12,203 nucleotides of DNA from positions 1-12,203 of the forward strand of contig MEWM01000108.1 of NCBI GenBank assembly GCA_001775355.1. Reading direction: 5' to 3'. This document shows positions 1-12,001 of this stretch, piece after piece. Under the pieces are notes generated by a model. It worked only from the letters and a program-made list of their open reading frames with translations, ran no database searches and had not been told where the DNA came from. A program made the position numbers and the translations under genes. How positions within the stretch are numbered: the stretch's first letter is position 1; each line of letters starts with the position of its first letter. The stretch comes from a candidate division Zixibacteria bacterium RBG_16_43_9 (GTDB lineage Bacteria; Zixibacteria; MSB-5A5; RBG-16-43-9).

Positions 1-357
1 AAAGCAATACCTTACCTCTTTGCCCAAAGTGACTTTTCTACATACACAGGGAAGCCTGACCACCACTTTCACCAGATCAACAATCCTCTCAATATCTTCT
101 ATGGGAACGATCTGCCCGTAATGGACCTTCTTCTGTTTTCTGACTACCAGATTTTTGACAAACCTCTGAACAAATTTAGGTTTTTTTCGAAGAGAATCCA
201 GCTCAGCCAGACTTTTAGCTGCATCTTCATTGAACTTCCTGAGGAAATCCCGCATAAACTCATCGCTTTTCTTCTGATGAAATAATTCTTCAGAATAGTT
301 TTTCATCTGAAGATACCATTTCTTTCCCTCGCCGTGCTGAACGCAGAACTCGCACAT
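1..357 (-). CDS. Cysteine-rich protein, putative Fe-S or metal binding (C-terminus outside window)
   Basis: The first 119 codons of a gene that continues past the left edge. The ATG at 357 is preceded at ideal spacing by AAGGAGG, the strongest ribosome site in the window. The protein begins MCEFCVQHGEGKKWYL, giving a CxxC pair at residues 2 and 5. A charged, probably helical stretch follows (about residues 20-75), then YGQIVPIEDIERI, then VVRLPCVCRKVTLGKEVRYC with three more cysteines. I associate MCEFC...HGEGKKWYL proteins with uncharacterised ferredoxin-like proteins of anaerobic and candidate-phylum bacteria, but I cannot name the family. Five cysteines in two groups suggest a metal or Fe-S site; this is inference. 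It lies downstream of cysS, separated by a REP-like unit and an AACCTC element, so it may be transcribed separately. The missing C-terminus prevents a firmer call. Confidence 0.75.
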   Translation of the reverse strand, partial: MCEFCVQHGEGKKWYLQMKNYSEELFHQKKSDEFMRDFLRKFNEDAAKSLAELDSLRKKPKFVQRFVKNLVVRKQKKVHYGQIVPIEDIERIVDLVKVVVRLPCVCRKVTLGKEVRYCF

Positions 358-369
358 AAGTCCTCCTTA

Positions 370-388
370 GTAGGGCGGGCTGTCCCGC
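370..388 (+). repeat. REP-like unit, GTAG head, degenerate
   Basis: GTAG at 370-373 is followed by GCGGG/CCCGC (375-379 and 384-388) closing on a CTGT loop. A CTACCCGAC remnant follows at about 401-409, resembling the second half of the paired units at 6204 and 7560. It sits only 12 bases upstream of the start of the cysteine-rich gene, just beyond its ribosome site. The stem differs from the other REP types in the window. Confidence 0.5.
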
Positions 389-426
389 TAAAAATCTGAA
401 CTACCCGACTATCTATACCTTTATTC

Positions 427-503
427 AACCTCCCCTTTATCCCCTCCTTGAAAAGGAGGGGAACCCTCCCTCTCCTTTCCAAGGAGAGGGTCGGGGTGAG
501 GTT
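427..503. repeat. AACCTC/GAGGTT palindromic element, copy 1
   Basis: A 77-bp copy with ends AACCTC and GAGGTT. Hairpin 1 is CCCCTCCTT/AAGGAGGGG with a GAA loop; hairpin 2 is CCCTCTCCTT/AAGGAGAGGG with a TCC loop. The 6-base spacer between the hairpins is not conserved among copies. It begins 7 bases after the cysS stop codon. No T-run follows the hairpins on the transcribed strand, so it is not an ordinary intrinsic terminator. Confidence 0.9.
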
Positions 504-510
504 CCATTAG

Positions 511-1908
511 CTAAATCCTCTTTTTCCACTTAGTTCCTTCAGGCGTATCTTCCAGGATAATCCCCAGAGACTCTATTTCTTTTCTGACCTTATCTGCCTC
601 TTCCCATTTTTTCTCTTTACGTGCCTGGTTTCTTTTTTGGATCAACTCCGTTATCTTTTCATCCAGCTTGAGTTCTTCTCTTTTCAAAATCCCCAACACT
701 GAGTCAAATCTCTGCATTAAAGCCAAGGTTTTTTCAGCATCCTGAGAGGAGAAATCGCCTTCATCAATAAACCGGTTAATTTCCTTAACCAGATCGAAGA
801 TTTTCCCTAAAGCAGATGATGTATTTAAATCGTCATCTAATGACTCCTCAAACCCGCTCTGGGCTTCCTTCAAAATCTCTGCAACCTCCGGATGACTTTT
901 CTGGCTTCTAATCCCTTTTAGCCTGTCTATAAAATCATGTAACCTCTGCAGTGCATTCTTGGCTCCGTCTAACCCTTCGAAAGTAAAGTTTAACTGCTGT
1001 CGATAATGTGTAGCTAACAGCAAATAACGAATTGCAATAGGATTGTATCCCTTGGATAAGATGTCTCTTAAAGTGAAGTAATTTCCAAACGACTTCGCCA
1101 TCTTCCTTCCTTCAACTAAGAGATGTTCATTGTGAAGCCAGTAGTTTACGAACTTCTCTCCGGTTGCTCCCTCGCTCTGGGCAATTTCGTTCTCGTGATG
1201 AGGGAAGATCAGGTCTACGCCGCCGGTGTGGATATCAAAATGTTTACCTAAGTATTTCATGCTCATTGCCGAGCATTCTATGTGCCAGCCAGGCCTTCCT
1301 TTGCCAACCTCTGTCTCCCAGAAAACCTCTCCATCCTTTTCATCCCAGGCTTTCCACAGAGCAAAATCTCCTATTTCCTCTTTCTCATATTCGTCTTTAC
1401 TGATCCTTGCTCCTGCTTTCAAATCTTCCATCTTCATTTTGGAGAGCTTACCGTAAGATGGAAAAGTGGAGATTTTGAAATAGCTTGAACCTCCGAGCTG
1501 ATAAGCATGACTTTTCTCCAAAAGCTTTTTGACCAAGTTTACCATATCCACGATATGGGCAGTTGCTTCAGGATAAACATCAGCCCGTTCAATGTTAAGA
1601 GCTTTTATATCCTGGAAAAAGGCATCTTTATATCTTGCGGTATATTCAGACAACGAGATTTTTTCCTGCTGAGAACCTCGGATCGTCTTGTCATCTATAT
1701 CTGTGAGGTTCATCACCTGCTTGACCTCATAACCTTTGTATCTGAGGTATCTTTTCAGAAGGTCAGCAAACACATACGCCCGGAAATTGCCGATATGGGC
1801 AAAATCGTAAACCGTAGGCCCGCAGGTATACATCCTGATTTTCCCTGGTTCAATCGAAACAAAATCCTCTTTTTGACGCGTTAAAGTGTTAAACAGTCTT
1901 AGACCCAT
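511..1908 (-). CDS. cysS: Cysteinyl-tRNA synthetase
   Basis: Class I aminoacyl-tRNA synthetase that activates cysteine with ATP and charges tRNA-Cys in the cytoplasm. The 465 residues match the family length. The catalytic Rossmann domain carries CGPTVYD with C29, the HIGH-type motif HIGN at 38-41, and MNLTDIDDK near 66-74. The zinc site is C29, C212 (WHIECSAMS) and H237/E241 within FPHHENE. The KMSKS loop reads KMAKS at 269-273, a single conservative change in the loop. The C-terminal helical part, about residue 350 onward, ends with the IQKRNQARKEKKWEEAD segment typical of CysRS. The ATG is preceded by AGGAGAG at suitable spacing. It starts 21 bases after the HAD gene stops, consistent with co-transcription. 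Nothing suggests damage. Confidence 0.98.
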   Translation of the reverse strand: MGLRLFNTLTRQKEDFVSIEPGKIRMYTCGPTVYDFAHIGNFRAYVFADLLKRYLRYKGYEVKQVMNLTDIDDKTIRGSQQEKISLSEYTARYKDAFFQDIKALNIERADVYPEATAHIVDMVNLVKKLLEKSHAYQLGGSSYFKISTFPSYGKLSKMKMEDLKAGARISKDEYEKEEIGDFALWKAWDEKDGEVFWETEVGKGRPGWHIECSAMSMKYLGKHFDIHTGGVDLIFPHHENEIAQSEGATGEKFVNYWLHNEHLLVEGRKMAKSFGNYFTLRDILSKGYNPIAIRYLLLATHYRQQLNFTFEGLDGAKNALQRLHDFIDRLKGIRSQKSHPEVAEILKEAQSGFEESLDDDLNTSSALGKIFDLVKEINRFIDEGDFSSQDAEKTLALMQRFDSVLGILKREELKLDEKITELIQKRNQARKEKKWEEADKVRKEIESLGIILEDTPEGTKWKKRI

Positions 1909-1929
1909 ATTCTCTCCTGAAGTTTCTCT

Positions 1930-2670
1930 TTATTCTCCACTCATTTTTCTGACCAATGGAGGAAGCTCCGATAGATTCTTGACCATTCCATCCGGAACAA
2001 TGGAAGCAGTGTAATCCCTTCCTTCCTTATATTTCAAAATTGCTTTCATCCCAACGTTCTTGGCTCCTCCGATATCCTCGATTAGTTTATCTCCGATAAA
2101 AAGCGACTCCTCTGGCTCAATTTTCAAACTTTCGAGACAGTGGAGGAAAATCTGGGGATGAGGTTTCTTGTAACCAACTTCAGAGGAAAATAAAATCGAA
2201 TCCAGATAAGGAAAAAGCCTGAATCTTTTCAGCTCAGTTAGATGAAATCTGTCCGGAAAAATCGTATTTGAAACCAGCCCTAACTTATACCCTTCTCCTT
2301 TAAAATACTTTAGAGTCTCGACCGAACCCTGAATCAGAGTTACCTGCTCAGTTACCGGTTTATAATATGCATCCAAAAAACCAGTGTAATCGCCGTCCCT
2401 TATCTCCAGATGAAGCTCTTTGAAAACATCCTTAGCCAGATCCTCAAATCTGAACTCCTCTAAGTTCTGTTCAGAAATTTCGAAAGCTGAGGACAGAAGA
2501 TTCTTCAGAATGGATGCATAAAGCTCAAAATCGAGCTTAATCAGTCCCTTATCTTTCAGAAAATCGTAACTTCTATGAGCAGATTTTTCACCTAAAACCA
2601 CCCAGCTCGAGTTCTCAAACTCGATCAGAGTACTCCCCATATCAAAAATTACCGCTTTTAATCTTTTCAT
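1930..2670 (-). CDS. HAD-superfamily hydrolase-like protein with altered motif I
   Basis: A 246-residue cytoplasmic protein of the haloacid dehalogenase superfamily with a helical C1-type cap (about residues 20-110). Motif I is FDMGSTL with nucleophile D10. Motif II is the serine in LVSNT at about 132-136. The motif III lysine is K169 in GYKKPHP. Motif IV is FIGDKLIED with acidic D194 and D199. Known HAD phosphatases use DxDxT, with the second Asp as general acid/base; here that position is Gly12. Non-phosphatase branches such as dehalogenases also lack this Asp, so the substrate and even the reaction type are unclear. The start is fixed by D10 being close to the N-terminus and by an AAGGG within the octamer array just upstream. 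It sits between ddl and cysS with short gaps, so it is probably in the same operon. Confidence 0.9.
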   Translation of the reverse strand: MKRLKAVIFDMGSTLIEFENSSWVVLGEKSAHRSYDFLKDKGLIKLDFELYASILKNLLSSAFEISEQNLEEFRFEDLAKDVFKELHLEIRDGDYTGFLDAYYKPVTEQVTLIQGSVETLKYFKGEGYKLGLVSNTIFPDRFHLTELKRFRLFPYLDSILFSSEVGYKKPHPQIFLHCLESLKIEPEESLFIGDKLIEDIGGAKNVGMKAILKYKEGRDYTASIVPDGMVKNLSELPPLVRKMSGE

Positions 2671-2671
2671 A

Positions 2672-2704
2672 CCCTTGATCCCTCAAACCCTTTAACCCTT
2701 GAAC
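2672..2704. repeat. 8-bp tandem array at the ddl/HAD junction
   Basis: Four 8-base units, CCCTTGAT, CCCTCAAA, CCCTTTAA and CCCTTGAA, run from 2672 to 2703. In mRNA sense each unit ends in an AGGG-type core, and the last lies just upstream of the HAD start codon. The array also covers the last codons and the stop of ddl. Unit divergence is moderate. Confidence 0.6.
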
Positions 2705-3723
2705 TTTTTAATAGCTATCTTCGCTATTCTATCCACCAGTTGCGGGAAATCTATTCCTGACGCCTTAGCCGCTTTCGGAACTAAACTTGTAGCCGTCATT
2801 CCCGGTAAGGTATTTACCTCCAAGCAATAGAATTTATCGTCAGTTCCGTAACGAAAATCCACTCTGGCGTAACCCTCACATCCTAAGGCTTTAAAAGCTC
2901 TATAACCTAATTCCTGAATCTCTTTAGTCTTTTCAATTGACAGCTCAGCCGGACATATATATTTGCTTTTCCCTTTGGTATATTTGCACTCGTAATCATA
3001 AATTCCGTGTTCCGGAACTATCTCAATCACTGGCAAAGGAGCCTCTCCGAGCACACCGACGGTCAGCTCTCTGCCAGGTATATATTTTTCAATGAGTATC
3101 TTCTCAGCATAAATTTTTGCCTCATCCATCGCCTTTGCCAGATTTTTCTCTTCCCTGACCACAGTCAATCCTACAGTCGAACCCTGGTCATTTGGCTTTA
3201 CCACTGCTGGATACCCAAAGGCGTTCTTGACCTTTCGCAAAACCTCTGACAGGTCTGTGGAATCGGAGCTTTCTAAAAGAAACCATTCCGGTGTCAAAAT
3301 CCCTTCCCTTTCAAAGATTTTTTTGGACATCGCTTTGTCCATAGCTAAGGCGCTGGCTAAAACCCCTGAGCCGGTATAGGGTATGCCGCTTAATTCCAAA
3401 AGAGCCTGAACTGTTCCATCTTCACCCTGTCCGCCATGCAAAGCTAAAAATACCAGTTCAACGTCCGAAAGGCTGAATGATTCAATCGTTCGCAATGCCA
3501 TCTTTTTCCCTTCGGTTTGCAGAGCCCTTACATCTGGGGGCTCGGTTTTAACTCCATTCGGCAAAAACCTGGTCTGATGTTCGGGTAACTTATATCCTTT
3601 TGACGTATCAATCGCCAAAACCTGATGACCAGCCTCTCTTAACCCCTGAACTATTGCCTCTCCTGAAGCTAAAGAGACATCCCGCTCAGCAGAGGTCCCG
3701 CCCATTAAAACCATTATCTTCAT
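2692..3723 (-). CDS. ddl: D-alanine--D-alanine ligase
   Basis: ATP-grasp enzyme that joins two D-alanines for the peptidoglycan stem peptide. The N-terminal domain has GGTSAERDVSLASG, in which E13 matches the D-Ala-binding Glu of DdlB. The centre has LALHGGQGEDGTVQALLE, then AMDKAMSKKIF, the glycine-rich KPNDQGSTVGL and YDYECKYTKGKSKYICPA (the omega-loop region). The metal site is RVDFR plus EVNTLPGMT, supplying Asp, Glu and Asn. The 343 residues exceed the roughly 305 of E. coli DdlB, mainly through a longer segment at residues about 40-80. The start overlaps the dedA stop in an ATGA, implying translational coupling to the upstream membrane protein. The C-terminus ends inside an 8-bp tandem array. 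Confidence 0.97.
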   Translation of the reverse strand: MKIMVLMGGTSAERDVSLASGEAIVQGLREAGHQVLAIDTSKGYKLPEHQTRFLPNGVKTEPPDVRALQTEGKKMALRTIESFSLSDVELVFLALHGGQGEDGTVQALLELSGIPYTGSGVLASALAMDKAMSKKIFEREGILTPEWFLLESSDSTDLSEVLRKVKNAFGYPAVVKPNDQGSTVGLTVVREEKNLAKAMDEAKIYAEKILIEKYIPGRELTVGVLGEAPLPVIEIVPEHGIYDYECKYTKGKSKYICPAELSIEKTKEIQELGYRAFKALGCEGYARVDFRYGTDDKFYCLEVNTLPGMTATSLVPKAAKASGIDFPQLVDRIAKIAIKKFKG

Positions 3724-4367
3724 TTTCCAATCCCTGTATTGTTTTTCTTTGACCTTTTCTTTATTAACCAGATAAACCAGATGACCACAATCAGAGCCAA
3801 TATAACTAAAATAAAACGGTTATATAAACTTAAAAATTTGAAAAGCTCCCGCTGGTTTTGATGGGTTAGTCTGCCCAGACCGATTATGAGACCATTCCAG
3901 GCAAAGATACTTATAAGACTGTAGGTAGCCATTTTCCACAGTCTTATTTTACCCAGACCCGCCCCCACCGCAATACCGGATCGGACCCCGGTAATAAACC
4001 TGCTGGCTATTATAACCTCTGGTCCATATTTTCCGAACCAGTTTTCAATTTTACCCAACTGAGTTCTGTTAAAGATTTTCCCTTTATCCTTTTCGAAAAG
4101 TTCTCTTCCTTTTTTCATCCCCAGATAGTAAAGGGCCAAAGCCCCACACAGACTGCCAGCACAGGGAATAAGAAAAGCCAAAGGCAAATTCAGTATCCCG
4201 CTAGAGGCTAAATAACCTCCTATAAAGGTAACCGTATCTCCGGGATAAGGAGGGAAAAAGGCCTCTAAAATAGCGCTGAAAAAAAGAAAAAAATAGATCC
4301 ACAAAACTCCATGAGCCGATATGAAGTTTAGTAGTTCAGCTCCTCTGCTGTTAAAAAACTCTTCCAT
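3720..4367 (-). CDS. DedA-family integral membrane protein (VTT domain)
   Basis: A 215-residue inner-membrane protein. Hydrophobic segments lie at about residues 18-38, 58-83, 145-167 and 184-207, followed by a lysine/arginine-rich tail that should face the cytoplasm. Family marks are E35, the FPPYPGD re-entrant motif (38-44), and ASRFITGVRSGIAVGAG with R123 and R129. Some DedA members recycle undecaprenyl phosphate and others translocate phospholipids or affect membrane potential; the sequence alone does not say which this is. Its 4-base overlap with ddl and nearness to ispD/ispF make a role in carrier-lipid recycling attractive, but this is inference. AGGA about 7 bases before the ATG serves as ribosome site and lies in the first unit of a 7-bp array. 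Confidence 0.92.
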   Translation of the reverse strand: MEEFFNSRGAELLNFISAHGVLWIYFFLFFSAILEAFFPPYPGDTVTFIGGYLASSGILNLPLAFLIPCAGSLCGALALYYLGMKKGRELFEKDKGKIFNRTQLGKIENWFGKYGPEVIIASRFITGVRSGIAVGAGLGKIRLWKMATYSLISIFAWNGLIIGLGRLTHQNQRELFKFLSLYNRFILVILALIVVIWFIWLIKKRSKKNNTGIGK

Positions 4368-4374
4368 CTTTTTT

Positions 4375-4404
4375 CCTATTACCTATTTCCTATGACCTAT
4401 CACC
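4375..4404. repeat. 7-bp tandem array at the ispF/dedA junction
   Basis: Four heptamers, CCTATTA, CCTATTT, CCTATGA and CCTATCA, followed by CC. In mRNA sense these read as repeated ATAGG units, the last forming the dedA ribosome-site region. The array includes the stop codon and last codons of ispF (stop at 4390-4392). It resembles in form the heptanucleotide short tandem repeats known from cyanobacterial intergenic regions. Confidence 0.65.
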
Positions 4405-4869
4405 TTTTCTTACCAGAGCCACCGCATATGCCTCTATCCCTTCTTTCCTTCCCGCAAACCCCATTCCTTCAGTCGTCGTCGCTTTAACCGAAACCTTATC
4501 TTTGGATATCCCCAGTGAATCTGCAATATTTTTTCTCATTTTGTCAATATATTTCGCCATCTTTGGCTCTTCTGCCACGATCATCGAATCGATATGCAAA
4601 ATCTCAGCTTTCTTGATCTTTCCTTTGATTAATGACAGAAGCTTTAGACTCGAAATACCCTTGTAACGTTTATCCGTATCTGGAAAATGCTTGCCCAAAT
4701 CACCCAGGGCTAAAGCACCCAGGATAGCATTCCCAATTGAATGAGAAAGAACATCCGCATCCGAATAACCCAAAAGCCCCTTTTTATAAGGAATCTTAAC
4801 CCCACCCAAAATCAAATCCCTATCTTTTATCAATCGGTGAGCATCATATCCGAAACCGATTTTGAGCAT
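4390..4869 (-). CDS. ispF: 2-C-methyl-D-erythritol 2,4-cyclodiphosphate synthase
   Basis: Converts CDP-methylerythritol 2-phosphate to the cyclodiphosphate with release of CMP, the fifth step of the MEP isoprenoid pathway. The 159 residues are standard length for this trimeric enzyme. The metal site is D9 and H11 in GFGYDAHR plus H43 in SDADVLSHSIGNA. HFPDTD (about 61-66), DSMIVAEEPK and KATTTEGMGFAGRKEGIEA are family signatures. The ATG follows an AAAGGT at suitable spacing. It starts 3 bases after the stop of the DUF559 gene, which has come between it and ispD; in many bacteria ispD and ispF are directly adjacent or fused. Confidence 0.98.
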   Translation of the reverse strand: MLKIGFGYDAHRLIKDRDLILGGVKIPYKKGLLGYSDADVLSHSIGNAILGALALGDLGKHFPDTDKRYKGISSLKLLSLIKGKIKKAEILHIDSMIVAEEPKMAKYIDKMRKNIADSLGISKDKVSVKATTTEGMGFAGRKEGIEAYAVALVRKGDRS

Positions 4870-4872
4870 TTT

Positions 4873-5325
4873 TTATACCTTTGTCTTTATTTTAAACCTC
4901 CCCTTATTCCCCTCCTTAAAAAGGAGGGGACTGCTTTTCCCTCTCCTTTCTAAGGAGAGGGTTAGGGTGAGGTTCTCGCAGTTTTTAAGTATATCATGAA
5001 GAACACCATTAATGTTCCATATTACCTCATTATTATTATATCTAATCACTTTAAAGCCTCGCCTTTCCAATTCTCGCTGTCTAATTTTATCATTTCTGGT
5101 TATTTGAGGATCTACATGTATATTCCCATCAATCTCGATTATAAGATACAACTCTGGGCAATAAAAATCTACAATATAGGGACCTATCTGATGTTGCCTT
5201 CTGAATTTGAAACCGGCCATCTGTTTCATTCTAAGCTTCTGCCATAATTTTCTTTCAGCCGGAGTAAGATTTTTACGGAGTTCTCTTCTTCTGTTTAAAC
5301 CTCCTTTATATCCCCTCCTTTGCAA
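4873..5325 (-). CDS. DUF559 endonuclease-like protein carried by a repeat element
   Basis: A 150-residue protein of the DUF559 family, restriction-endonuclease-like (PD-(D/E)xK fold) and distantly related to the Vsr mismatch nuclease. The core spans about residues 15-112: RELRKNLTPAERKLWQKLR, then FKFRRQHQIGPYIVDFYC, IIEIDGNIH and RRGFKVIRYNNNEV. Likely catalytic residues are D53, E64 and D66, with H70 nearby. All core motifs are intact, so it may be active; its substrate is unknown. The apparent start is TTG at 5325 and lies inside repeat copy 3. An AAAGGAGG follows it, but no ATG, GTG or TTG comes between that site and the core. Residues 118-144 are translated from repeat copy 2, and the last few from the ispF leader. 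The gene therefore appears to have arrived with the repeats rather than belonging to the isp operon. Confidence 0.85.
   Translation of the reverse strand: MQRRGYKGGLNRRRELRKNLTPAERKLWQKLRMKQMAGFKFRRQHQIGPYIVDFYCPELYLIIEIDGNIHVDPQITRNDKIRQRELERRGFKVIRYNNNEVIWNINGVLHDILKNCENLTLTLSLERRGKSSPLLFKEGNKGRFKIKTKV
4895..4974. repeat. AACCTC/GAGGTT palindromic element, copy 2
   Basis: An 80-bp two-hairpin copy: CCCCTCCTT/AAGGAGGGG with loop AAA, then CCCTCTCCTT/AAGGAGAGGG with loop TCT. It encodes residues 118-144 of the DUF559 protein and is open in that frame. Confidence 0.9.
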
Positions 5326-5346
5326 GGAGGGGGTTGGGATGAGGTT
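5298..5346. repeat. AACCTC/GAGGTT element, copy 3, single-hairpin form
   Basis: A 49-bp copy with intact AACCTC and GAGGTT ends. It keeps only the CCCCTCCTT/AAGGAGGGG hairpin; hairpin 2 is missing, as if deleted internally. It contains the apparent TTG start of the DUF559 gene and an AAAGGAGG on the transcribed strand. It lies 9 bases beyond the ispD stop. Confidence 0.8.
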
Positions 5347-5355
5347 CTTTTTTAT

Positions 5356-6036
5356 CTATCTCTCTAAAATCCTCTCCGCCAAAATCAAATCCTCCGGTGT
5401 CGTGATTTTGATATTCTCATATTCTCCTTCTAAAACCTTCACTTTGAATCCTATCCTTTCCACTAAAGAGGAATCATCTGTTCCAATGAAACCATCCTCC
5501 ATTGCTTTTTTATATGCCTCCAGAATCAATTTATACTCAAAGGTCTGGGGAGTCTGAGCCACCCAGAGTTTTTCCCGATCCAGAGTGGTAATGACAAATT
5601 TATCTTCGATTCTTTTCACTGTCTCATTTATCGGCAGAGCTAAAATAACAGCTTTCTCTTTTTTGCATATCTCGATGGACTTTGCGATCTTCTCCAAGGA
5701 GATAAAGGGTCTGACCCCGTCGTGAATAACAACTATGTCTGTATTCCCGGATAAAGACAAAAGTGCCTTGTAAACTGAGTCCTGCCTTTCTTTCCCACCA
5801 GCGAGAATCCTCCTCACTTTCTTGAAATCATACACATCCACGACCTGGTATGAGCAGAACGAAACATAATCCTCAGGCACCACTAAGACAATCTCATCTA
5901 TCAAGTCACATTTCTCAAATTTTTCGACCGTATGAGTCAGGACAGGTTTCTTTTTTATTTGTATAAACTGCTTGGGCAGTTCCCCTCCCATCCTCTCCCC
6001 TCTACCACCAGCTGCGATAATTGCTCTTACATTCAT
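5356..6036 (-). CDS. ispD: 2-C-methyl-D-erythritol 4-phosphate cytidylyltransferase
   Basis: Transfers CMP from CTP to methylerythritol 4-phosphate, the third step of the MEP pathway. From the ATG at 6036 the product is 226 residues, the usual length. Residues 8-17 are AAGGRGERMG, the nucleotide-binding loop, and K22 lies in PKQFIQI. VIHDGVRPFI is the HDxxRP motif. ALPINETVKRI, WVAQTPQTF, GTDDSSLVER and NIKITTPEDL complete the family pattern. An in-frame ATG at 6087 would add 17 residues (MRSSSGSLWSQAYW...), but that stretch is translated from a degenerate REP unit and has no family counterpart, so the inner ATG is chosen. Its ribosome site is weak (TGGA). It is separated from ispF only by the DUF559 element. 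Confidence 0.97.
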   Translation of the reverse strand: MNVRAIIAAGGRGERMGGELPKQFIQIKKKPVLTHTVEKFEKCDLIDEIVLVVPEDYVSFCSYQVVDVYDFKKVRRILAGGKERQDSVYKALLSLSGNTDIVVIHDGVRPFISLEKIAKSIEICKKEKAVILALPINETVKRIEDKFVITTLDREKLWVAQTPQTFEYKLILEAYKKAMEDGFIGTDDSSLVERIGFKVKVLEGEYENIKITTPEDLILAERILER

Positions 6037-6048
6037 ATTTTTATTCCA

Positions 6049-6076
6049 GTAGGCCTGGCTCCAAAGGCTGCCTGAC
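6049..6076 (+). repeat. Degenerate REP-like unit upstream of ispD
   Basis: GTAG at 6049-6052 followed by GCCTGGC...AAA...GCCTGAC, the same plan as the GTCGGGC type (head, arm, short inner stem, AAA loop, arm) but with mismatched arms. It lies 13 bases upstream of the chosen ispD start and accounts for the false N-terminal extension. Confidence 0.4.
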
Positions 6077-6106
6077 GAACTTCGCATCTACCCCGATCTA
6101 TTCTTT

Positions 6107-6185
6107 AACCTCCCCTTTGTCCCCTCCTTGAAAAGGAGGGGATTTTTCCCCCTCTCCTTTCTAAGGAGAGGGTTAGGGTGAGGTC
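6107..6185. repeat. AACCTC/GAGGTT palindromic element, copy 4
   Basis: A 79-bp copy with both hairpins intact (loops GAA and TCT). Its right end reads GAGGTC rather than GAGGTT. The 15 bases left of AACCTC (CCGATCTATTCTTT) closely match those left of copy 5, so the true repeat may extend beyond AACCTC. Confidence 0.88.
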
Positions 6186-6203
6186 CTATTAACCGTTGTA
6201 GCT

Positions 6204-6269
6204 GTAGGTCGGGCTATCGAAAATTGCCCGACAAATCAGGCGTCGGGTAGCTCACGCAACCCGACCTAC
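6204..6269. repeat. BIME: two GTAG-headed REP units in inverted orientation
   Basis: Plus-strand unit: GTAG at 6204 with arms GTCGGGC (6208-6214) and GCCCGAC (6226-6232). Minus-strand unit at 6242-6269: arms GTCGGGT/ACCCGAC with its GTAG head at the right end. The GTAG heads therefore face outward. It lies 19 bases downstream of the queA stop and 18 bases from copy 4. Confidence 0.8.
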
Positions 6270-6288
6270 CCTCTCGATGTTTAATATC

Positions 6289-7314
6289 CTACACAATCAA
6301 CATCGCATCCCCGTAACTGTAGAATCTGTACTTTTCTTTTATAGCTTCCTGGTAAGCATTGAAAATAAGCTCTTTTCCTGCAAAAGCAGATACCAGTAAA
6401 AAAAGTGTCGACTTGGGGAGATGGAAATTGGTGATCATTCCATCAACCATTCTGAAATCATAAGGTGGATAGATAAACTTTCTGGTCCAGCCTTTATGCG
6501 ATCCGTTGTTGTTTTCAAACACAGTTTCCAGCGTCCTGACTGCTGAGGTCCCCACTGCAAAAACTTTTCCACCATTCTTCCTGACTGAGATTATTTTCTC
6601 ATACGACTCATTGCATATCTCGAAATACTCTTCTTCCATTTTATGCTCTTCAAAATCTGAAGCCCGGATCGGCCTGAAAGTCCCCCAGCCGATATGCAGA
6701 GTAATCGGAATAACCTCTATTCCTTTTTCCTTAATCTTCTCCAAAAGCTCTGGCGTGAAATGTAAACCTGCAGTTGGAGCCGCAACTGCTCCTCGCTCTC
6801 TGGCATAGACGGTCTGGTATCTATCCCTGTCCTTCAAATCAGCTTCTCTTTTGATGTAAGGAGGCAAAGGGGTGTTCCCTATCCTTTCCAGAAGTTCAAA
6901 AATATCCCCTTTATAATCGAACCGGGCTAAGTCTCCTTCAGTGGTGCTCTCCTTCAAAATCTCACAGCTCAGACTCCCCTGATTAAAACTTATGACTGAC
7001 CCAAGCGTGATTTTCTTTCTGGGCTTTAGCAAAACCTCCCACAGATTGTCCTCTAAATTCCTGAGCAGGAAAACCTCTGCTCTAATCCCATCCCTTTGAT
7101 TTATGCCGAATAGCCTGGCTGGAAAAACTCTGGTTTGATTAACGACCACTGCGTCTTCTGGGTTAAGATAATCGATAATATCGAAAAATTTTCTATGCTC
7201 CAGCTCACCAGTATCTCGATGCAAGACTAAAAGCTTGGAATGGTCCCTTTTTTCCGCAGGATACTGAGCAATTAATTCCTTGGGTAATTTGAAATCGAAA
7301 TCAGTCAGCTTCAT
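6289..7314 (-). CDS. queA: S-adenosylmethionine:tRNA ribosyltransferase-isomerase
   Basis: Moves the ribosyl part of S-adenosylmethionine onto 7-aminomethyl-7-deazaguanine in tRNA, forming epoxyqueuosine at the wobble position. The 341 residues match the family. Signatures include DFDFKLPKELIAQYP with RDHSKLLVL near the start, VVVNQTRVFPARLFG, APTAGLHFTPELLEKIK, LHIGWGTFRPI and MITNFHLPKSTLFLLVSAF. The ATG at 7314 is the only sensible start because the family begins MKxxDFDF. There is no Shine-Dalgarno sequence before it; a REP hairpin ends 5 bases upstream. It lies in the same orientation as queH, whose product performs the next reaction, but 428 bases of repeat-rich DNA separate them. Confidence 0.98.
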   Translation of the reverse strand: MKLTDFDFKLPKELIAQYPAEKRDHSKLLVLHRDTGELEHRKFFDIIDYLNPEDAVVVNQTRVFPARLFGINQRDGIRAEVFLLRNLEDNLWEVLLKPRKKITLGSVISFNQGSLSCEILKESTTEGDLARFDYKGDIFELLERIGNTPLPPYIKREADLKDRDRYQTVYARERGAVAAPTAGLHFTPELLEKIKEKGIEVIPITLHIGWGTFRPIRASDFEEHKMEEEYFEICNESYEKIISVRKNGGKVFAVGTSAVRTLETVFENNNGSHKGWTRKFIYPPYDFRMVDGMITNFHLPKSTLFLLVSAFAGKELIFNAYQEAIKEKYRFYSYGDAMLIV

Positions 7315-7319
7315 ATTTT

Positions 7320-7342
7320 GTAGTTGCCCAATTTATTGGGCA
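7320..7342 (+). repeat. REP-like unit (TGCCCAAT stem) abutting the queA start
   Basis: GTAG at 7320-7323, one T, then the perfect palindrome TGCCCAAT-TT-ATTGGGCA (7325-7342). Its head is 5 bases from the queA start codon, occupying the place where a ribosome site would normally lie. Confidence 0.75.
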
Positions 7343-7380
7343 TCTTTTAATCGTCTGACGTAATTTAAGCCCGTCGTCTT

Positions 7381-7422
7381 GCAGTTGCCCAACTTATCGT
7401 GCTCGATGAATCGAGCAACTAC
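7381..7422 (-). repeat. REP-like unit (TGCTCGAT stem) with partial inverted partner
   Basis: On the minus strand GTAG (7422-7419) is followed by a T and the perfect palindrome TGCTCGAT-TC-ATCGAGCA (7417-7400). The adjoining GCAGTTGCCCAA at 7381-7392 resembles the first half of the unit at 7320 with one head change, forming a hybrid pair. Confidence 0.7.
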
Positions 7423-7442
7423 GTATTCTTGTTATGCAACCG

Positions 7443-7474
7443 GTAAACCCACGTTGCCCCCAACGTGGGTTTAC
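7443..7474. repeat. Perfect 14-bp stem hairpin
   Basis: GTAAACCCACGTTG (7443-7456) pairs fully with CAACGTGGGTTTAC (7461-7474) across a CCCC loop. On the plus strand it is followed by TCTTTTATTT, terminator-like, yet no plus-strand gene precedes it. On the transcribed minus strand no T-run follows. It may be another dispersed repeat type. Confidence 0.6.
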
Positions 7475-7559
7475 TCTTTTATTTCCTGAAAAATATATTA
7501 AACAGAACAAAAAGCAAGGAGAGAATTAGGCTGAGCAGAAGCGAGGAAGTCAGGGGAAA

Positions 7560-7626
7560 GTAGGTCGGGCTGTCAAAGACTGCCCGACAAACTCCTTCGT
7601 CGGGTAGCTTGCGCAACCCGACCTAC
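7560..7626. repeat. BIME: two GTAG-headed REP units in inverted orientation
   Basis: The clearest pair in the window. Plus-strand unit 7560-7588: GTAG, arms GTCGGGC/GCCCGAC, a T-T mismatch, inner stem GTC/GAC and an AAA loop. Minus-strand unit 7599-7626: arms GTCGGGT/ACCCGAC with the GTAG head ending at 7626. A 10-base linker separates them. Confidence 0.85.
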
Positions 7627-7649
7627 TCTTTCTATCCGATCCATTCTTT

Positions 7650-7730
7650 AACCTCCCCTTTATCCCCTCCTTGCAAAGGAGGGGATTGAAGTCTCCCTCT
7701 CCTTTCCAAGGAGAGGGCAGGGGTGAGGTT
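7650..7730. repeat. AACCTC/GAGGTT palindromic element, copy 5
   Basis: An 81-bp copy with intact ends and both hairpins, and a 10-base spacer unlike the other copies. A 15-bp direct repeat, ACCCGACCTACTCTT, flanks it at 7616-7630 and 7736-7750. Confidence 0.9.
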
Positions 7731-7732
7731 CT

Positions 7733-7746
7733 GTTACCCGACCTAC
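7733..7746 (-). repeat. REP head remnant overlapping the queH stop codon
   Basis: The minus strand reads GTAGGTCGGGTAAC, the head and first arm of the GTCGGGT unit without the second arm. The TAG of its GTAG head is the queH stop codon (7743-7745). Confidence 0.55.
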
Positions 7747-8321
7747 TCTTGAAGCCTGAAGCCTTTTTCCTGCCAGATCGGATATGACCCCTTTTTATTG
7801 TAGTATCTTTCTTTTTCGCTGAAAATACAGCCGCAGTATTTCTGACGATACAGGCTCAGTTCCTTAGCCATAGCTTTCCCTTCATAATATCCAGGCCTTA
7901 AGTCCTCATAGAAGAATTTGACATCATATTTCTTAGCTAACTCTTCTCCAATCTCATTGATAAGCTCATGTTTCTGCGTAGGGCTAACTAAAAGGGTAGT
8001 GGAAAAAGCCTCAAAGCCCTTTTCTTTTGCTACACTGGCAGTTCTTGCCAATCTTAACTGGTAACAGAACCTGCAGCGATCATCCAAATGTGGCATGACT
8101 GCCTGAAGGTATTCTACTAAATCATAAGAGTCTTCATAGATCATCGGAAAAACCCTTGCCCACTCTAAATATCTTGCCGCTTCTAACCTGTTCTGGTATT
8201 CGGTGTAAGGGTGGATATTAGGATTATACCAGAAGCCGGTGAGTTTATGTCCCTTCTCTGTCAACCTTTTCAAAGGATACATCAGACAGGGGCCGCAGCA
8301 GACGTGCATTAAAATATTCAT
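7743..8321 (-). CDS. queH: Epoxyqueuosine reductase QueH
   Basis: Reduces epoxyqueuosine in tRNA to queuosine, replacing the unrelated cobalamin-dependent QueG. The 192-residue protein has the family's cysteine pattern: C8, C9 and C12 in HVCCGPC, C83 and C86 in DDRCRFCYQLRL, and C163 and C165 in KYCGCIFSE. In characterised QueH the adjacent pair and the CxxC hold a 4Fe-4S cluster, and the late CxC lies close by. FWYNPNIHPYTEYQNR and TTLLVSPTQKHE are also typical. AAGGA about 9 bases upstream supports the ATG at 8321. Downstream on the same strand, queA encodes the preceding step. The last codons run into a REP head, which supplies the TAG stop, so the native C-terminus may have been slightly altered. 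Confidence 0.96.
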   Translation of the reverse strand: MNILMHVCCGPCLMYPLKRLTEKGHKLTGFWYNPNIHPYTEYQNRLEAARYLEWARVFPMIYEDSYDLVEYLQAVMPHLDDRCRFCYQLRLARTASVAKEKGFEAFSTTLLVSPTQKHELINEIGEELAKKYDVKFFYEDLRPGYYEGKAMAKELSLYRQKYCGCIFSEKERYYNKKGSYPIWQEKGFRLQE

Positions 8322-8345
8322 ACTTTCTTATCCTTATACGACGTC

Positions 8346-9365
8346 TCAAAAAAGCTCCGGTTGAGATTTCGATTCTTTTTTTATCTCTAAATGACGGTAA
8401 GCTGAATCCGTGGCGACTCGTCCTCTGGGTGTTCGTGCTAACAGCCCTTCCTGGATCAAAAAAGGCTCGTAAATTTCCTCAATCGTATCCTCCTCTTCCC
8501 CAACTGCCACCGCAATCGTATTTATGCCAACCGGACCCCCTTTAAATTTTTGAATAATTACTTCTAAAATCCTTTTGTCCATCTCATCTAAGCCCAATTC
8601 ATCCACCTCTAACATCTTTAGAGCCTCTATTGCTACTTTACGGTCTATCTTCCCTTTCGCCTTGACCTGAGCGTAGTCTCTGACCCTTCTTAAAAGCCGG
8701 TTAGCCACCCTGGGTGTACCTCTGGACCTTTTGGCTATCTCCATTGCCCCTTCATCTGTGACGAAAATATTTAGTATCTTAGCTGAGCGATGCACGATCT
8801 TATATATATCCTCAGGCGTATAAAAATCTAACCTGCTGACTACCCCGAACCTCGATCTTAGAGGTGAGGTTAGAAGTCCCGCCCTGGTAGTTGCACCGAT
8901 CAGGGTAAACCGGTTCAGGTTTATCTTTACCGATCTGGCAGAAGGTCCTTTTTCTATCATTATGTCTAAGGTGAAATCTTCCATAGCCGGATATAGATAT
9001 TCTTCTACTATATGACTCAGACGGTGAATTTCATCTATAAATAAAACTTCCCCTTTTTGCAGATTAGTCAGAATCCCGGCTAAGTCTGCTGGTTTTTCAA
9101 GGATAGGACCTGAGGTGGATTTTATATTCGTCCCTATCTCCTTGGCGATGATGAAGGCTAAGGTAGTCTTTCCCAGTCCTGGAGGACCATAGAAAAGAGT
9201 GTGCTCCAAGGACTCTTTTCTTTTTCTGGCCGCTTGAATAAAAATATTCAGATTTTCCTTAACTTTTTCCTGCCCCACGAACTCCTCAAAGCGAGTAGGA
9301 CGCAGAGTTAAATCTAATTCCTGCTCTTCAGTAGAAACCTGGGGGGATGTGATTCTTTCTGTCAT
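8346..9365 (-). CDS. ruvB: Holliday junction branch-migration ATPase RuvB
   Basis: Hexameric AAA+ motor that, with RuvA, drives branch migration of Holliday junctions. Counting from the ATG at 9365, the protein is 339 residues, typical for the family. It starts MTERITSP and continues [15 protein letters not shown]. Walker A is GPPGLGKT (60-67) and Walker B is LFIDEIH (D111, E112). Sensor and arginine-finger elements lie in [19 protein letters not shown]. The C-terminal winged helix includes [10 protein letters not shown] and RTPRGRVAT. An in-frame ATG at 9395 would add ten residues ([10 protein letters not shown]), but these are read from a 7-bp repeat and lack a ribosome site. It is co-directional with ruvA, 60 bases downstream of it. 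Confidence 0.98.
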
Positions 9366-9377
9366 AATCTTCAATAC

Positions 9378-9443
9378 GTAGACAGTAGACAGCATACAGG
9401 GGGGTTGCGTGGCCCTGTCTACTGTCTACTGTTTTCTGTCTAC
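9378..9443. repeat. Heptamer array forming a 15-bp inverted repeat at the ruvA/ruvB junction
   Basis: GTAGACAGTAGACAG (9378-9392) is perfectly complementary to CTGTCTACTGTCTAC (9415-9429), with a 22-base loop. Both arms are tandem 7-mers, and a further degenerate unit extends to 9443. The right part encodes the end of ruvA including its stop (9426-9428). A 15-bp stem in the leader of ruvB could affect ruvB expression. Confidence 0.75.
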
Positions 9444-10037
9444 TTGCCTCAAAGCTTTCTTAATCAATTCCTCTACTGTCAGCTTCTCTTTAATCCCTTC
9501 TTTCCCTTTGTCAATCGCTTTTTTTGCTTCGTAGCGGCTGTATCCTAAGGAGCAAAGGGCTAAAATCGCTTCCTGTTCGATCAGTGCTTCGGTTTGACTC
9601 TTTGAATCGACTTTCAACTCTTTTTTCAGGTCCAGCTTCCCGAATTTTTCCTTAAGCTCTACCACTAACCTCTGGGCAGTTTTCCTGCCTATGCCCGGGA
9701 TGTTGGTGAGAAAGTCAATGTGCTCCTCCATTATCGCTCTGTGAAAATCCTCAACTGAGATGAAAGATAAAATCCCCAGCCCGGTTTTTGGACCTATCCC
9801 GTTAACCGAGATCAGAAGCTCGAACAGCCATTTCTCTTCCGGGGTGTAAAACCCGAAAAGCTGAAGGCAGTCTTCCCGCACATGCTGGTAGGTTATGATT
9901 TTTACCTTTGAGCCTGGCTCACCTAACCTGTCGTAAGTGGAGATAGGTATATTAACGCAATATCCCACCCCATTTACCTCCAGGATTAATTGGGTGGGAT
10001 TTTTCTCTACCAGTTTACCTTCTAAATAGGCAATCAA
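9426..10037 (-). CDS. ruvA: Holliday junction DNA-binding protein RuvA
   Basis: Tetrameric protein that grips Holliday junctions and loads RuvB. The 203 residues match the family. The N-terminal OB-fold domain starts MIAYLEGKL and includes NGVGYCVNIP. The two helix-hairpin-helix motifs are NGIGPKTGLGIL and IPGIGRKTAQRLVVELK. The C-terminal RuvB-contacting domain has EAILALCSLGYSRYEAKKAI. The start codon is TTG at 10037, supported by AGGAAG about 7 bases upstream and by the MIAYLxG family start. A 149-base gap with two REP units separates it from ruvC. The last codons are made of the 7-bp repeat at the ruvB junction. Confidence 0.97.
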   Translation of the reverse strand: MIAYLEGKLVEKNPTQLILEVNGVGYCVNIPISTYDRLGEPGSKVKIITYQHVREDCLQLFGFYTPEEKWLFELLISVNGIGPKTGLGILSFISVEDFHRAIMEEHIDFLTNIPGIGRKTAQRLVVELKEKFGKLDLKKELKVDSKSQTEALIEQEAILALCSLGYSRYEAKKAIDKGKEGIKEKLTVEELIKKALRQVDRKQ

Positions 10038-10093
10038 AATTTTCTTCCTATCTGATAAATAGATGGTTCAGAGTGCTCTGAAAAACTTTTTCT

Positions 10094-10116
10094 GCAGGGC
10101 TGGGAGCCCTGCCTAC
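10094..10116 (-). repeat. REP-like unit (GCAGGGCT stem)
   Basis: On the minus strand GTAG (10116-10113) is directly followed by the perfect palindrome GCAGGGCT-CCC-AGCCCTGC (10112-10094). It is paired head-to-head with the unit at 10141, opposite to the outward arrangement of the BIMEs at 6204 and 7560. It lies between ruvC and ruvA. Confidence 0.7.
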
Positions 10117-10140
10117 GTGTTCGTAAGGTTTTGATTTCTC

Positions 10141-10164
10141 GTAGGTCGGGCACCTCTGCCCGAC
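10141..10164 (+). repeat. REP-like unit (GTCGGGC stem)
   Basis: GTAG at 10141-10144, then GTCGGGC (10145-10151), loop ACCTCT, and GCCCGAC (10158-10164). A run of seven T follows on the plus strand, but no plus-strand gene ends here, so terminator function is unlikely. Confidence 0.75.
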
Positions 10165-10186
10165 CACTCTTTTTTTAGAGACCTCG

Positions 10187-10708
10187 TTAGGTATCCTTGA
10201 TCATCTCCTTTAAACGCTTTTTACTGACTAACTTGTTCAAATGACATAGGGCTATCGCCAGTGCATCTGAGGCATCCTCAGGCTCAGGCAGGTTTTTGAG
10301 TTGCAGGATATTTTTCACCATAAACTGCACCTGGGTCTTGGAAGCTGCTCCTGTGCCGACGATCGAGGATTTAACTTCTCTGGGCGAATATTCGGCAATT
10401 GGGATTTTCGCCTGGGCACCTGCCAGTAAAACCACACCCCTTACCTGTCCCATTACCAGAGCAGACTTGGCATTTTTACTGTAAAAAGCTTCTTCAATTG
10501 CTAACTGGTCTGGCTTTATCCTGGAGATGACATCAGTAATGCATGAGTATATCTCTTCTAATCTTAAGGACAATGGTTTCTTATAGGAGACCTTAATGGT
10601 ACCATAGTCGATCAGGACTGCTTTGTCATGACTTCCTTTTACCACGCCGTACCCGGTTACCCCGCTTCCCGGGTCTATCCCCAAGATTACCAGATCGTCC
10701 TTATTCAA
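10187..10708 (-). CDS. ruvC: Holliday junction resolvase RuvC
   Basis: Dimeric, magnesium-dependent endonuclease that cuts Holliday junctions after RuvAB branch migration. From the TTG at 10708 the protein is 173 residues, equal to E. coli RuvC. The catalytic acids are the Asp of GIDPGSGVTGYG (residue 12), a Glu in LAIEEAFYSKNAKSAL and the two Asp of EDASDALAIALCHLN. KSSIVGTGAASKTQVQ is also typical. GGAGG about 8 bases before the TTG supports this start. The frame stays open upstream to a TTG at 10834, adding 42 residues, but that extension (SPLPSPWKGEG..., PLLFKEGTKGRLK) is translated repeat copy 6 and is rejected. It follows yebC, a common arrangement. Confidence 0.96.
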   Translation of the reverse strand: MNKDDLVILGIDPGSGVTGYGVVKGSHDKAVLIDYGTIKVSYKKPLSLRLEEIYSCITDVISRIKPDQLAIEEAFYSKNAKSALVMGQVRGVVLLAGAQAKIPIAEYSPREVKSSIVGTGAASKTQVQFMVKNILQLKNLPEPEDASDALAIALCHLNKLVSKKRLKEMIKDT

Positions 10709-10736
10709 GTACCTGCCTCCAGCAGCTTTATCCTTT

Positions 10737-10817
10737 AACCTCCCCTTTGTCCCCTCCTTGAAAAGGAGGGGATAGGTTTCCCCCTCTCCTTTCCAAGGAG
10801 AGGGCAGGGGTGAGGTT
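10737..10817. repeat. AACCTC/GAGGTT palindromic element, copy 6
   Basis: An 81-bp copy with intact ends and both hairpins (loops GAA and TCC). It lies between the yebC stop and the ruvC start, 28 bases from the latter, so both hairpins would sit in the leader of ruvC on a shared transcript. Confidence 0.9.
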
Positions 10818-10842
10818 TCACTATCTTCTTTCAATTATCCAT

Positions 10843-11598
10843 CTAAGATTTGATGCTCATCTTCTCCATTATCTCTTCTGCGATATCGAAGTTGGCATAT
10901 ACCTTCGACACGTCCTCATGGTCTTCCAGACCCTCCATCAGCTTGAGCATCTGCTCAGCCTCTTTCCCTTCTAATTTCACAGTGGTCTGAGGAAGCATAG
11001 TCTGTTCTGCGCTGGAATATTTTATTTTGTTCTGGTCTAAGGCCTGTTTGACCGTCTCAAATCGATTGTAAGGGGTAACAATCTCATAATATTCCCTTTC
11101 AGACTTCATATCTATTGCTCCTGCTTCTAACACGATTTCCAGGAGCTTATCCTCATCCACTGGTGCTTTCTCTACCAGGATTAACCCCCTCTTTTCAAAC
11201 ATCCAGCCAACGCACCCGACCTCGCCTAAATTGCCTCCGTAACGGTCAAAGATATGCCTGATCTCGGAAACGGTCCGGTTTTTATTGTCAGTGGTGACCT
11301 CGACTAAAATTGCCACTCCACCTGGTCCATATCCTTCATAGCTGACCTCTTCATAAGAAACTCCAGGAAGCTCCCCTGTACCTTTTTTGACAGCTCTATC
11401 GATATTGGCTGCCGGCATATTAGCCCCCTTAGCCGCCTGAATAGCCGCCCTTAGCCTGGGGTTCCCATCAGTATCTCCTCCACCATGCCTGGCCGCCACG
11501 GTTAGCTCCTTTATGAGCTTGGTGAAGACTTTACCACGTTCTGAATCGGTTTTCTCTTTTTTTCTTTTTATGGTTGCCCATTTCGAATGTCCAGACAT
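10843..11598 (-). CDS. yebC: YebC/PmpR (TACO1) family protein
   Basis: A 251-residue cytoplasmic protein of the YebC/TACO1 family, long annotated as a transcriptional regulator and more recently linked to relief of ribosome stalling; its role here is not provable from sequence. It starts with the invariant [14 protein letters not shown], followed by [17 protein letters not shown] and a [15 protein letters not shown] segment. [31 protein letters not shown] and [14 protein letters not shown] are also hallmarks, with the acidic C-terminal domain intact. GGGAGG at suitable spacing supports the ATG at 11598. It is probably the first gene of the ruv operon, because a long repeat-filled gap with a candidate promoter lies upstream. 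Confidence 0.97.
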
Positions 11599-11615
11599 AT
11601 TATATCCTCCCTTGG

Positions 11616-11660
11616 ATCCGTGGGTGGATCTTACAGGTCCTGCGGATCCGTTTCACGGAT
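11616..11660 (-). promoter_or_regulatory. Possible structured leader of yebC
   Basis: In the presumed yebC leader, ATCCGTG and CACGGAT (11654-11660 and 11616-11622 on the plus strand) can pair over a 31-base interior that repeats GGATCC and contains CAGGACCTG. An alternative small hairpin ATCCGT-GAA-ACGGAT competes with it. It could be a regulatory fold or just another dispersed repeat; no known riboswitch was recognised. Confidence 0.3.
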
Positions 11661-11680
11661 TAATGAACTTATTTCCTTTT

Positions 11681-11711
11681 ATAATAAACAGAATCTATCG
11701 AAAAAAGGCAA
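11681..11711 (-). promoter_or_regulatory. Candidate sigma-70-type promoter for yebC-ruv
   Basis: On the minus strand TTGCCT (11711-11706) and TATTAT (11686-11681) are 19 bases apart, about 85 bases before the yebC start. The region between is A+T-rich. The spacing is longer than the 17-base optimum, so this is a tentative call. Confidence 0.35.
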
Positions 11712-11773
11712 TAGAAAATTTGAGTTGTTTCTGGAGATACGGAAGGAAACGACCGACTGTCGTGTTAATACGG

Positions 11774-11846
11774 GTAGGTCGGGCTATCCCGGACTTAGCG
11801 GGACTGCTCGACAAATGCAACGTCCGACACAAAGGTCGGACACTAC
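11774..11846. repeat. Hybrid BIME of two different REP types
   Basis: Plus-strand unit: GTAG at 11774, outer arms GTCGGGC (11778-11784) and GCTCGAC (11806-11812), with an extra inner hairpin TCCCG/CGGGA between them. Minus-strand unit: GTAG head at 11846-11843, one A/T, and arms GTCCGAC (11822-11828) and GTCGGAC (11835-11841). The two stems are different sequences. Confidence 0.65.
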
Positions 11847-11854
11847 AAACAAAG

Positions 11855-11890
11855 CCCTCTCCTTCTTAAGGAGAGGGTTAGGGTGAGGTT
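11855..11890. repeat. AACCTC/GAGGTT element, copy 7, right half only
   Basis: Hairpin 2 (CCCTCTCCTT/AAGGAGAGGG, loop CTT) and the GGGTGAGGTT end are present. Hairpin 1 and the AACCTC end are missing, replaced by BIME-adjacent sequence. The orientation is the same as that of the other six copies. Confidence 0.8.
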
Positions 11891-11894
11891 CCGG

Positions 11895-11918
11895 GCGAAC
11901 CTGAAAGGTTCGCACTAC
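11895..11918 (-). repeat. REP-like unit (GCGAACCT stem)
   Basis: On the minus strand GTAG (11918-11915), one T, then the perfect palindrome GCGAACCT-TTC-AGGTTCGC (11913-11895). It begins only 5 bases after repeat copy 7. Confidence 0.7.
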
Positions 11919-11936
11919 GAAAAAAAGAACTCTTTT

Positions 11937-11964: not shown

Positions 11965-12001
11965 TTTCTGCTATTGGAGCTTCTTACCGAAAAAGATAGG
12001 G

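Follow-up and report, generated by a model that had tools for sequence, protein, structure and literature searches.

A DUF559 nuclease gene between hairpin ends as a candidate one-gene mobile element in Zixibacteria and other bacteria

Why should a small nuclease gene be enclosed by, and in part translated from, copies of a dispersed palindromic repeat? The question is raised by a 12,203-nucleotide (nt) stretch of candidate division Zixibacteria bacterium RBG_16_43_9 (contig MEWM01000108.1, positions 1 to 12,203; hereafter the window), in which an open reading frame (ORF) of the DUF559 family lies between ispD and ispF. Our best explanation, to which we give a probability of about two in three, is that this locus represents a copy of a very small, single-gene mobile element, whose nuclease would act on the hairpin ends and from which the short repeats found elsewhere would derive. 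It is based on the flanking of DUF559 genes on both sides in many phyla, the hairpin-bounded ends of the unit, the existence of filled and gene-free sites, the co-occurrence of gene and hairpins in genomes, and purifying selection on the protein. The mobility of the DUF559 unit is well supported; we infer the role of the nuclease in its spread.

The DUF559 ORF (4873..5325, minus strand) has a TTG start and codes for 150 residues; from its profile match, the product is predicted to be a Vsr-like PD-(D/E)XK nuclease. It matches the PF04480 profile with 122.2 bits (E 1.2e-35; curated cut-off 20.6), which makes it a member of DUF559, and the only other match at E 0.001 is PF18741, below the cut-off of the latter. 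The flanking genes are ispD (5356..6087, minus strand) and ispF (4390..4869, minus strand). As an earlier note on this DNA had described, a palindromic AACCTC/GAGGTT copy is present on each side of the gene, AACCTC being the tag of the repeat. The upstream end, in gene orientation, is a 49-nt unit in which an outer tag borders a single C-rich hairpin on either side (5298..5346), and the TTG codon does lie inside it. The downstream end is a full two-hairpin copy with the order tag-hairpin-hairpin-tag (4895..4974), whose gene-side tag reads AACCTCACCC in gene orientation, and residues 118-144, the C-terminal tail, are indeed read from it. Gene-less two-hairpin copies are located at 427..503, 6107..6186 (ispD/queA gap), 7650..7730 (queA/queH gap) and 10737..10817 (ruvC/yebC gap, overlapping the mechanical start of the ruvC ORF). 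A half copy with a single hairpin and a single tag is found at 11855..11890, so that the five gaps with gene-less copies announced in the note are obtained if this one is counted. The five two-hairpin units of the window are 77-81 nt long each. When folded as single-stranded DNA, none of the seven copies was equalled by any of 200 dinucleotide shuffles (z -3.5 to -5.5). In the window's own genome (G000, 1.95 Mb, 74% complete), 19 blastn matches to the repeat correspond to 17 distinct places. Seven of these 17 are on the 17-kb contig of the window (G000:C108), less than 1% of the assembly, indicating local clustering around the nuclease gene.

We collected DUF559 loci by scanning genome contigs and analysed 80 named ones, which are the best 80 of at least 551 confirmed (L120 is the same as L026, and L084 and L129 come from one genome). 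They belong to Nitrospira, candidate phyla, Chloroflexi, Cyanobacteria, Bacteroidetes, Proteobacteria, Planctomycetes and others. The printed flanks of 22 DUF559 loci, inspected by eye, mostly harbour palindromes on both sides, which differ in sequence and are alike in build. Our definition of a C-rich hairpin was made after this inspection, and the flank-pairing score was set after it and before the 80 loci were examined. Flanks are considered paired when the 300 nt upstream of a gene match the 300 nt downstream with a score of at least 14; DUF559 flanks begin at the matched stretch, and those of the controls within the ORF, 30 nt from its ends. By this measure the flanks pair in 42 of the 80 DUF559 loci, compared with 15 of 462 genes of matched size in these loci and 16 of 800 random placements. 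C-rich hairpins are present on both sides of 46 DUF559 genes, on one side of 22 and on neither side of 12, compared with 6, 52 and 404 of the 462 control genes, respectively. One sign or the other, i.e., flank pairing or two-sided hairpins, is found for 54/80 DUF559 genes and 19/462 controls. Among the 63 loci of at least 9 kb, flank sequence recurs elsewhere in the same locus for 23 DUF559 genes, versus 164 of 1,260 random placements. Of the six control genes whose pair score reaches 20 or more, two code for nucleases themselves, namely a second DUF559 protein (identified by eye) and a GIY-YIG protein.

Paired repeats flank DUF559 genes elsewhere far more often than control genes, but the AACCTC...GAGGTT motif itself is not general. 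The repeats vary from genome to genome, with tags in relatives such as GAACTC, TAATCCCC, ACACACCCC and others (by eye), and the common factor is their build. In one locus from Myxococcota (L088), the DUF559 gene lies between inverted repeats of approximately 111 nt instead of short hairpins. We also considered phages and plasmids as carriers and rejected them; matches were found in 2 phage records (50,697 searched) and 44 plasmid records (72,556 searched). IMG/VR provided 23 loci; of the 15 with both flanks, 10 are flank-paired and 8 have hairpins on both sides.

An all-against-all DNA comparison of the DUF559 genes, each extended by a maximum of 1,500 nt in both directions, revealed the limits of the unit. 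Similarity is confined to approximately 420-580 nt in several pairs (L080/L090, L078/L095, L026/L027, L026/L044, L062/L063, L038/L039, whose match spans 584 nt, and the cross-phylum pair L026/L092). The edges of the aligned units coincide with the outer base of a hairpin; L080/L090 and L078/L095 show this most clearly, and the upstream hairpin of L044 is decayed. L222 and L237, which belong to a single genome, are 77% identical over 463 nt and have no flanks in common. Pairs that are similar far past the unit (L051/L054, L056/L057, L073/L102, L081/L111 and L070/L079) provide no evidence for its ends, and some alignments span only part of it (e.g., L063/L090, 75% over 348 nt). The unit is organized as hairpin, short linker, G-rich tag, gene, C-rich tag, linker and hairpin, and in 90 of 103 hairpins G is richer over C on the gene side. 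The gene-less copies of the window have the reverse order, tag-hairpin-hairpin-tag, and, judging from this arrangement, look as if a right end had been joined to a left end. In two members of the window's genus (G001 and G002), full two-hairpin copies of a different family, with the tag GAACTC, enclose the DUF559 gene on both sides. This family has 30 matches in G001 and 50 in G002, some of them being one place on both strands. In the window's own genome and in G007, this family has 17 and 19 matches, respectively, with no DUF559 gene between its copies.

The earlier note had proposed a comparison of orthologous ispD-ispF loci, and the gene proved to be absent from this site in all nine other genomes in which ispF was found. 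ispD and ispF are adjacent in eight of these nine relatives, with a gap of approximately 20 nt in G001 and G002, and other genes intervene in the ninth (G006). The left flank of the filled site, ATAAAAAAG, and its right flank, AATAAAG, are suggestive of a target duplication, but they are A-rich and we did not count them. The gene-less copies also differ in distribution. That at 6107-6186 is common to the window, G001 and G002, that at 427-503 is missing at the syntenic place of G002, that at 7650-7730 was not found at the syntenic places of G001, G002 and G003, and that at 10737-10817 was not found at those of G001 and G003, the G002 contig ending there. At a further locus, in the Nostoc group, the DUF559 gene is present in three of eight genomes and absent from five, two of which retain both flanking genes.

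At the genome level, we analysed a set of 59 genomes comprising that of the window and its relatives. PF04480 matches occur in 23 of them, of which 19 are strong and define presence of DUF559; the four weak ones (E 2.7e-4 to 3.5e-5, above the family cut-off) were counted as without. Occurrences of the hairpin pattern CCCYYYCC-N(2-10)-GGRRRGGG have a median of 46 in the 19 genomes with DUF559 versus 1 in the 40 genomes without (p 8e-7), and outside the window's order the medians are 24 and 1 (p 1.4e-5). We compared the flanks of DUF559 genes in this set with those of 30 fetched loci each of Y1_Tnp (RAYT-type) and HNH genes of the same class as the window, these samples representing part of all matches; 1/25 DUF559 loci (2/25 from ORF ends), 1/30 RAYT and 1/30 HNH loci were dropped for flanks shorter than 100 nt. 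Flanks are paired for 23 of 29 Y1_Tnp genes, which behave as a known positive case in this test, and C-rich hairpins are on both sides of 0/29, their repeats being of another kind. The HNH genes gave 0/29 for both signs. For DUF559, the flanks are paired in 16/24 cases and two-sided hairpins are present in 16/24 when measured from the domain core, or in 14/23 and 12/23, respectively, from the ORF ends, as for RAYT and HNH. Hairpin counts and Y1_Tnp match counts are not correlated (rho 0.15, p 0.26).

The structure model of the DUF559 protein has a predicted local distance difference test (pLDDT) score of 84.3 and shows the Vsr-like PD-(D/E)XK fold that characterizes Vsr-like/EDxHD homing endonucleases, the nearest solved structures to the model being the DUF559 protein NGO0050 (3HRL), the homing endonuclease I-Bth0305I (3R3P) and Vsr. 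NGO0050 is, to our knowledge, without known function. FRRQH and DFYC are conserved without exception in 23 diverse relatives, as are E, D and G of the EIDG-H motif and the H that follows them. Ratios of non-synonymous to synonymous substitution (dN/dS) are 0.11-0.29 in nine DUF559 pairs, seven of them at different sites, which at the level of sequence comparison shows the protein to be under purifying selection. These nine were kept from 11 pairs, L046/L049 and L038/L039 being dropped for a reported stop inside the core, which in L038/L039 is likely due to misplaced coordinates of L039. dS is at least 0.74 in six of the nine, and two of them, L084/L095 and L051/L054, have flanking DNA in common on one or both sides and may go back to inheritance of a single copy. 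A repeat-type peptide is found in the last 40 residues of 132 of 190 fetched DUF559 homologues (a pattern defined by eye, in a set biased to two queries).

We propose that the element consists of a single DUF559 gene for a Vsr-like PD-(D/E)XK nuclease between two inverted ends, each made of a C-rich hairpin and a G-rich tag facing the gene, and that the dispersed short palindromes would be gene-less derivatives in which the same ends are joined back to back (tag-hairpin-hairpin-tag). The nuclease would bind the tag and cut or nick the base of the extruded hairpin, on its own copy as well as on gene-less ones, and host replication, ligation or repair would complete the move.

The suggestion of the earlier note that the locus is the gene-bearing form of a repeat family holds in part. 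It is favoured by the paired flanks above controls, the gene-free ispD-ispF sites and the ends common to unrelated loci, but a number of observations weigh against it and against the proposed element. Among the 80 DUF559 loci, 26 fail both the flank-pairing and the two-sided hairpin tests, and many of the loci examined derive from metagenome-assembled genomes. Seven genomes without a clear DUF559 gene have more than 10 C-rich hairpins (G026, G036, G045, G007, G005, G004 and G050), and the single-contig G026 carries 70 of them. A within-family permutation of the hairpin/DUF559 co-occurrence was marginal (p 0.047), and a reversed control pattern is also commoner in genomes with DUF559 (median 3 vs 0, p 5e-5). 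The 19 GAACTC-family matches of G007 occur with no DUF559 in that genome, and the AACCTC family has 18 matches in G001 and 10 in G002, though the sole DUF559 gene there is bracketed by the GAACTC family. No exact junction emerged from the compared filled and empty sites, nor did a target site duplication, such as would characterize a MITE of a DDE insertion sequence, their flanks being too diverged or A-rich. One relative (G003) retains half a repeat without the gene at ispD-ispF (L149:3720-3830), so that the repeat and the gene may not have arrived together. Finally, other roles of DUF559 proteins are in print, in passages of PMC12907096 on the methylase-restrained Caulobacter VsrA and of PMC9403480 on an intein homing endonuclease.

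Two of these observations call for comment. The remnant in G003 might be what is left of an older element since lost, or it might have been inserted independently. The seven hairpin-rich genomes may have lost the partner of their hairpins or have another mobilizer; a hidden or broken DUF559 gene was considered and rejected, as a relaxed profile search yielded one weak match (G036, E 0.07) and none in the other six.

The strongest rival, which we nevertheless consider unlikely, is a homing-like spread in which the repeats would be older and moved by something else, the nuclease would cut gene-free repeats and the gene would be copied in by recombination, the flanking repeats being homology arms. 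The half repeat of G003 and the position of the gene between two full two-hairpin copies in G001 and G002 are consistent with this scenario, as is the presence of I-Bth0305I among the closest folds. Because the part of PMC9403480 on a Thermosynechococcus intein places its DUF559 gene in the EDxHD homing endonuclease family, we slightly raised the probability of homing at the expense of our best explanation. However, a homing endonuclease gene would split its own target, whereas in the DUF559 unit the tags face the gene with the hairpins outside and in gene-less copies the tags are outside, so that the gene probably does not interrupt a simple copy. The unit common to L080/L090 and similar pairs, moreover, stops after one hairpin per side, and hairpin number tracks DUF559 rather than the number of Y1_Tnp genes. 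A hitch-hiking scenario appears more doubtful still: a RAYT or other mobilizer would move the repeats, and DUF559 would be a defence or repair gene carried along or bracketed by chance. Y1_Tnp matches in 56 of the 59 genomes, the seven hairpin-rich genomes and a repeated segment with a transposase and DUF559, reported in a passage of PMC12308824, speak in its favour. Nevertheless, the common unit is too short for an additional gene of usual size, and the DUF559-hairpin pairing recurs across phyla. A RAYT was specifically rejected as the mobilizer of the C-rich repeats, as the same-class Y1_Tnp genes carry other repeats, with no two-sided C-rich hairpins in 29, and their number does not track that of the hairpins. 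Flanking by chance or for regulation, with the hairpins serving as terminators between genes or as hot spots for insertion next to a small gene native to the locus, would agree with the repeats occupying several gaps of the window but is very improbable, being already contradicted by the size-matched genes and same-class HNH genes, which largely lack such repeats, by the random placements, and by the absence of the gene at the ispD-ispF and Nostoc-group sites in relatives.

The proposed DUF559 element can be compared with several known systems. As in REPIN-RAYT systems, described in parts of PMC3116915 and PMC3733652, there are dispersed inverted palindrome pairs, copies flanking a small enzyme gene and lineage-specific repeat families, and the defining association, i.e., repeats flanking the enzyme gene and inverted doublets elsewhere, is found here as well. 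Two other defining features are not: the REPIN-RAYT enzyme is an HUH Y1 transposase and DUF559 a PD-(D/E)XK (Vsr-like) nuclease, and the palindrome foot has GTAG or CGTC in the former and AACCTC in the window. In addition, 19 further named genomes have 1-6 PF04480 matches each, and the gene-bearing DUF559 unit itself has recognizable ends and gene-free sites. By analogy, the DUF559 system may work like REPIN-RAYT with an unrelated enzyme. IS200/IS605 elements, presented in part in PMC6006769, are also very small, with one enzyme and hairpins near both ends, but the enzyme, an HUH Y1 transposase, is of another superfamily, and the DUF559 ends are inverted, with the hairpins outermost and the tags gene-ward. 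The EDxHD/Vsr-like homing endonucleases (I-Bth0305I, PDB 3R3P; the Thermosynechococcus DUF559 intein, PMC9403480, in part) resemble it in fold and link DUF559 to mobility through inteins; the DUF559 locus differs in that it contains no intron or intein, ends in hairpins and has gene-less copies scattered elsewhere. In Caulobacter, VsrA (CCNA_02930), a Vsr-like protein with the same domain, is named in a section of PMC12907096 as the cause of the SOS response in cells without the methylase ScmA; it damages DNA in cells, but in a host-type pairing with a methylase. Vsr mismatch-repair endonucleases, for their part, nick at T:G mismatches and act as partners of a cytosine methylase. No methylase was seen by eye among the ORFs of the window, the genome as a whole not having been searched for them. 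As far as these sections go, VsrA and the intein indicate that DUF559 members can damage DNA and can be mobile. A passage of PMC8861277 mentions DUF559 in the context of incomplete prophages, and the domain named in PMC9454445 is in fact DUF5593. We found no paper linking DUF559 to palindromic repeats in the open-licence literature, preprints excluded.

The minus-strand gene order in the window is cysS, HAD gene, ddl, DedA gene, ispF, DUF559 ORF, ispD, queA, queH, ruvB, ruvA, ruvC and yebC, of which cysS, ispF, ispD, queA, queH, ruvC and yebC were confirmed with Pfam, as was DUF559 above, and the others were assigned by eye. Another family of dispersed repeats, GTAGGTCGGGC...GCCCGAC, is present at 6204-6270, 7560-7627, 11774-11965 and 369-384. 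One of its ends carries GTAG, as expected of RAYT-type REPs, and a Y1_Tnp gene of the same genome (L165) is bracketed by GTAGGCGGAGC repeats.

Small stand-alone GIY-YIG nuclease genes were identified at L069:6259-6543 and L104:5742-5939 (Pfam) and at L118:16064-16345 and L064:869-1069 (similarity). Long direct repeats of another kind flank the first two (GTCATTCTGA...AGGATGACA in L069, pair score 69; CCTGAGC...GTCGAAGG in L104, pair score 71), and the pair score is 9 for L118 and L064. A GIY-YIG gene also lies beside a tRNA-Gly gene in L006 and L153 (G000:C125) and in L148:2099-2299 (G002:C74), the tRNA-Gly being at 2350-2423 in L148 and 900-973 in L153. In these three loci a partial tRNA-Gly duplicate is found on the other side of the GIY-YIG gene (pair scores 44-47). 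GIY-YIG genes with direct repeats are perhaps a second nuclease-repeat pairing.

We know of no established mobilizer for dispersed palindromes without a RAYT-type tag, and the DUF559/hairpin pairings in many phyla point to an undescribed way of spreading repeats. A broader proposal, which we advance tentatively and at somewhat less than even odds, is that these units form a pan-bacterial class of minimal transposable elements, in which hairpin ends are acted on by a lone Vsr-like PD-(D/E)XK nuclease as the driving enzyme. The class would be the source of C-rich palindromes in many phyla and possibly one of several nuclease-repeat pairs, with stand-alone GIY-YIG nucleases as another. If the proposed element is real, the spreading of short hairpins by a lone nuclease would represent DNA mobility outside the transposase chemistries known to us. 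It would also explain the repeat-encoded protein tails of DUF559 homologues and suggest what many proteins of a family labelled as being of unknown function do.
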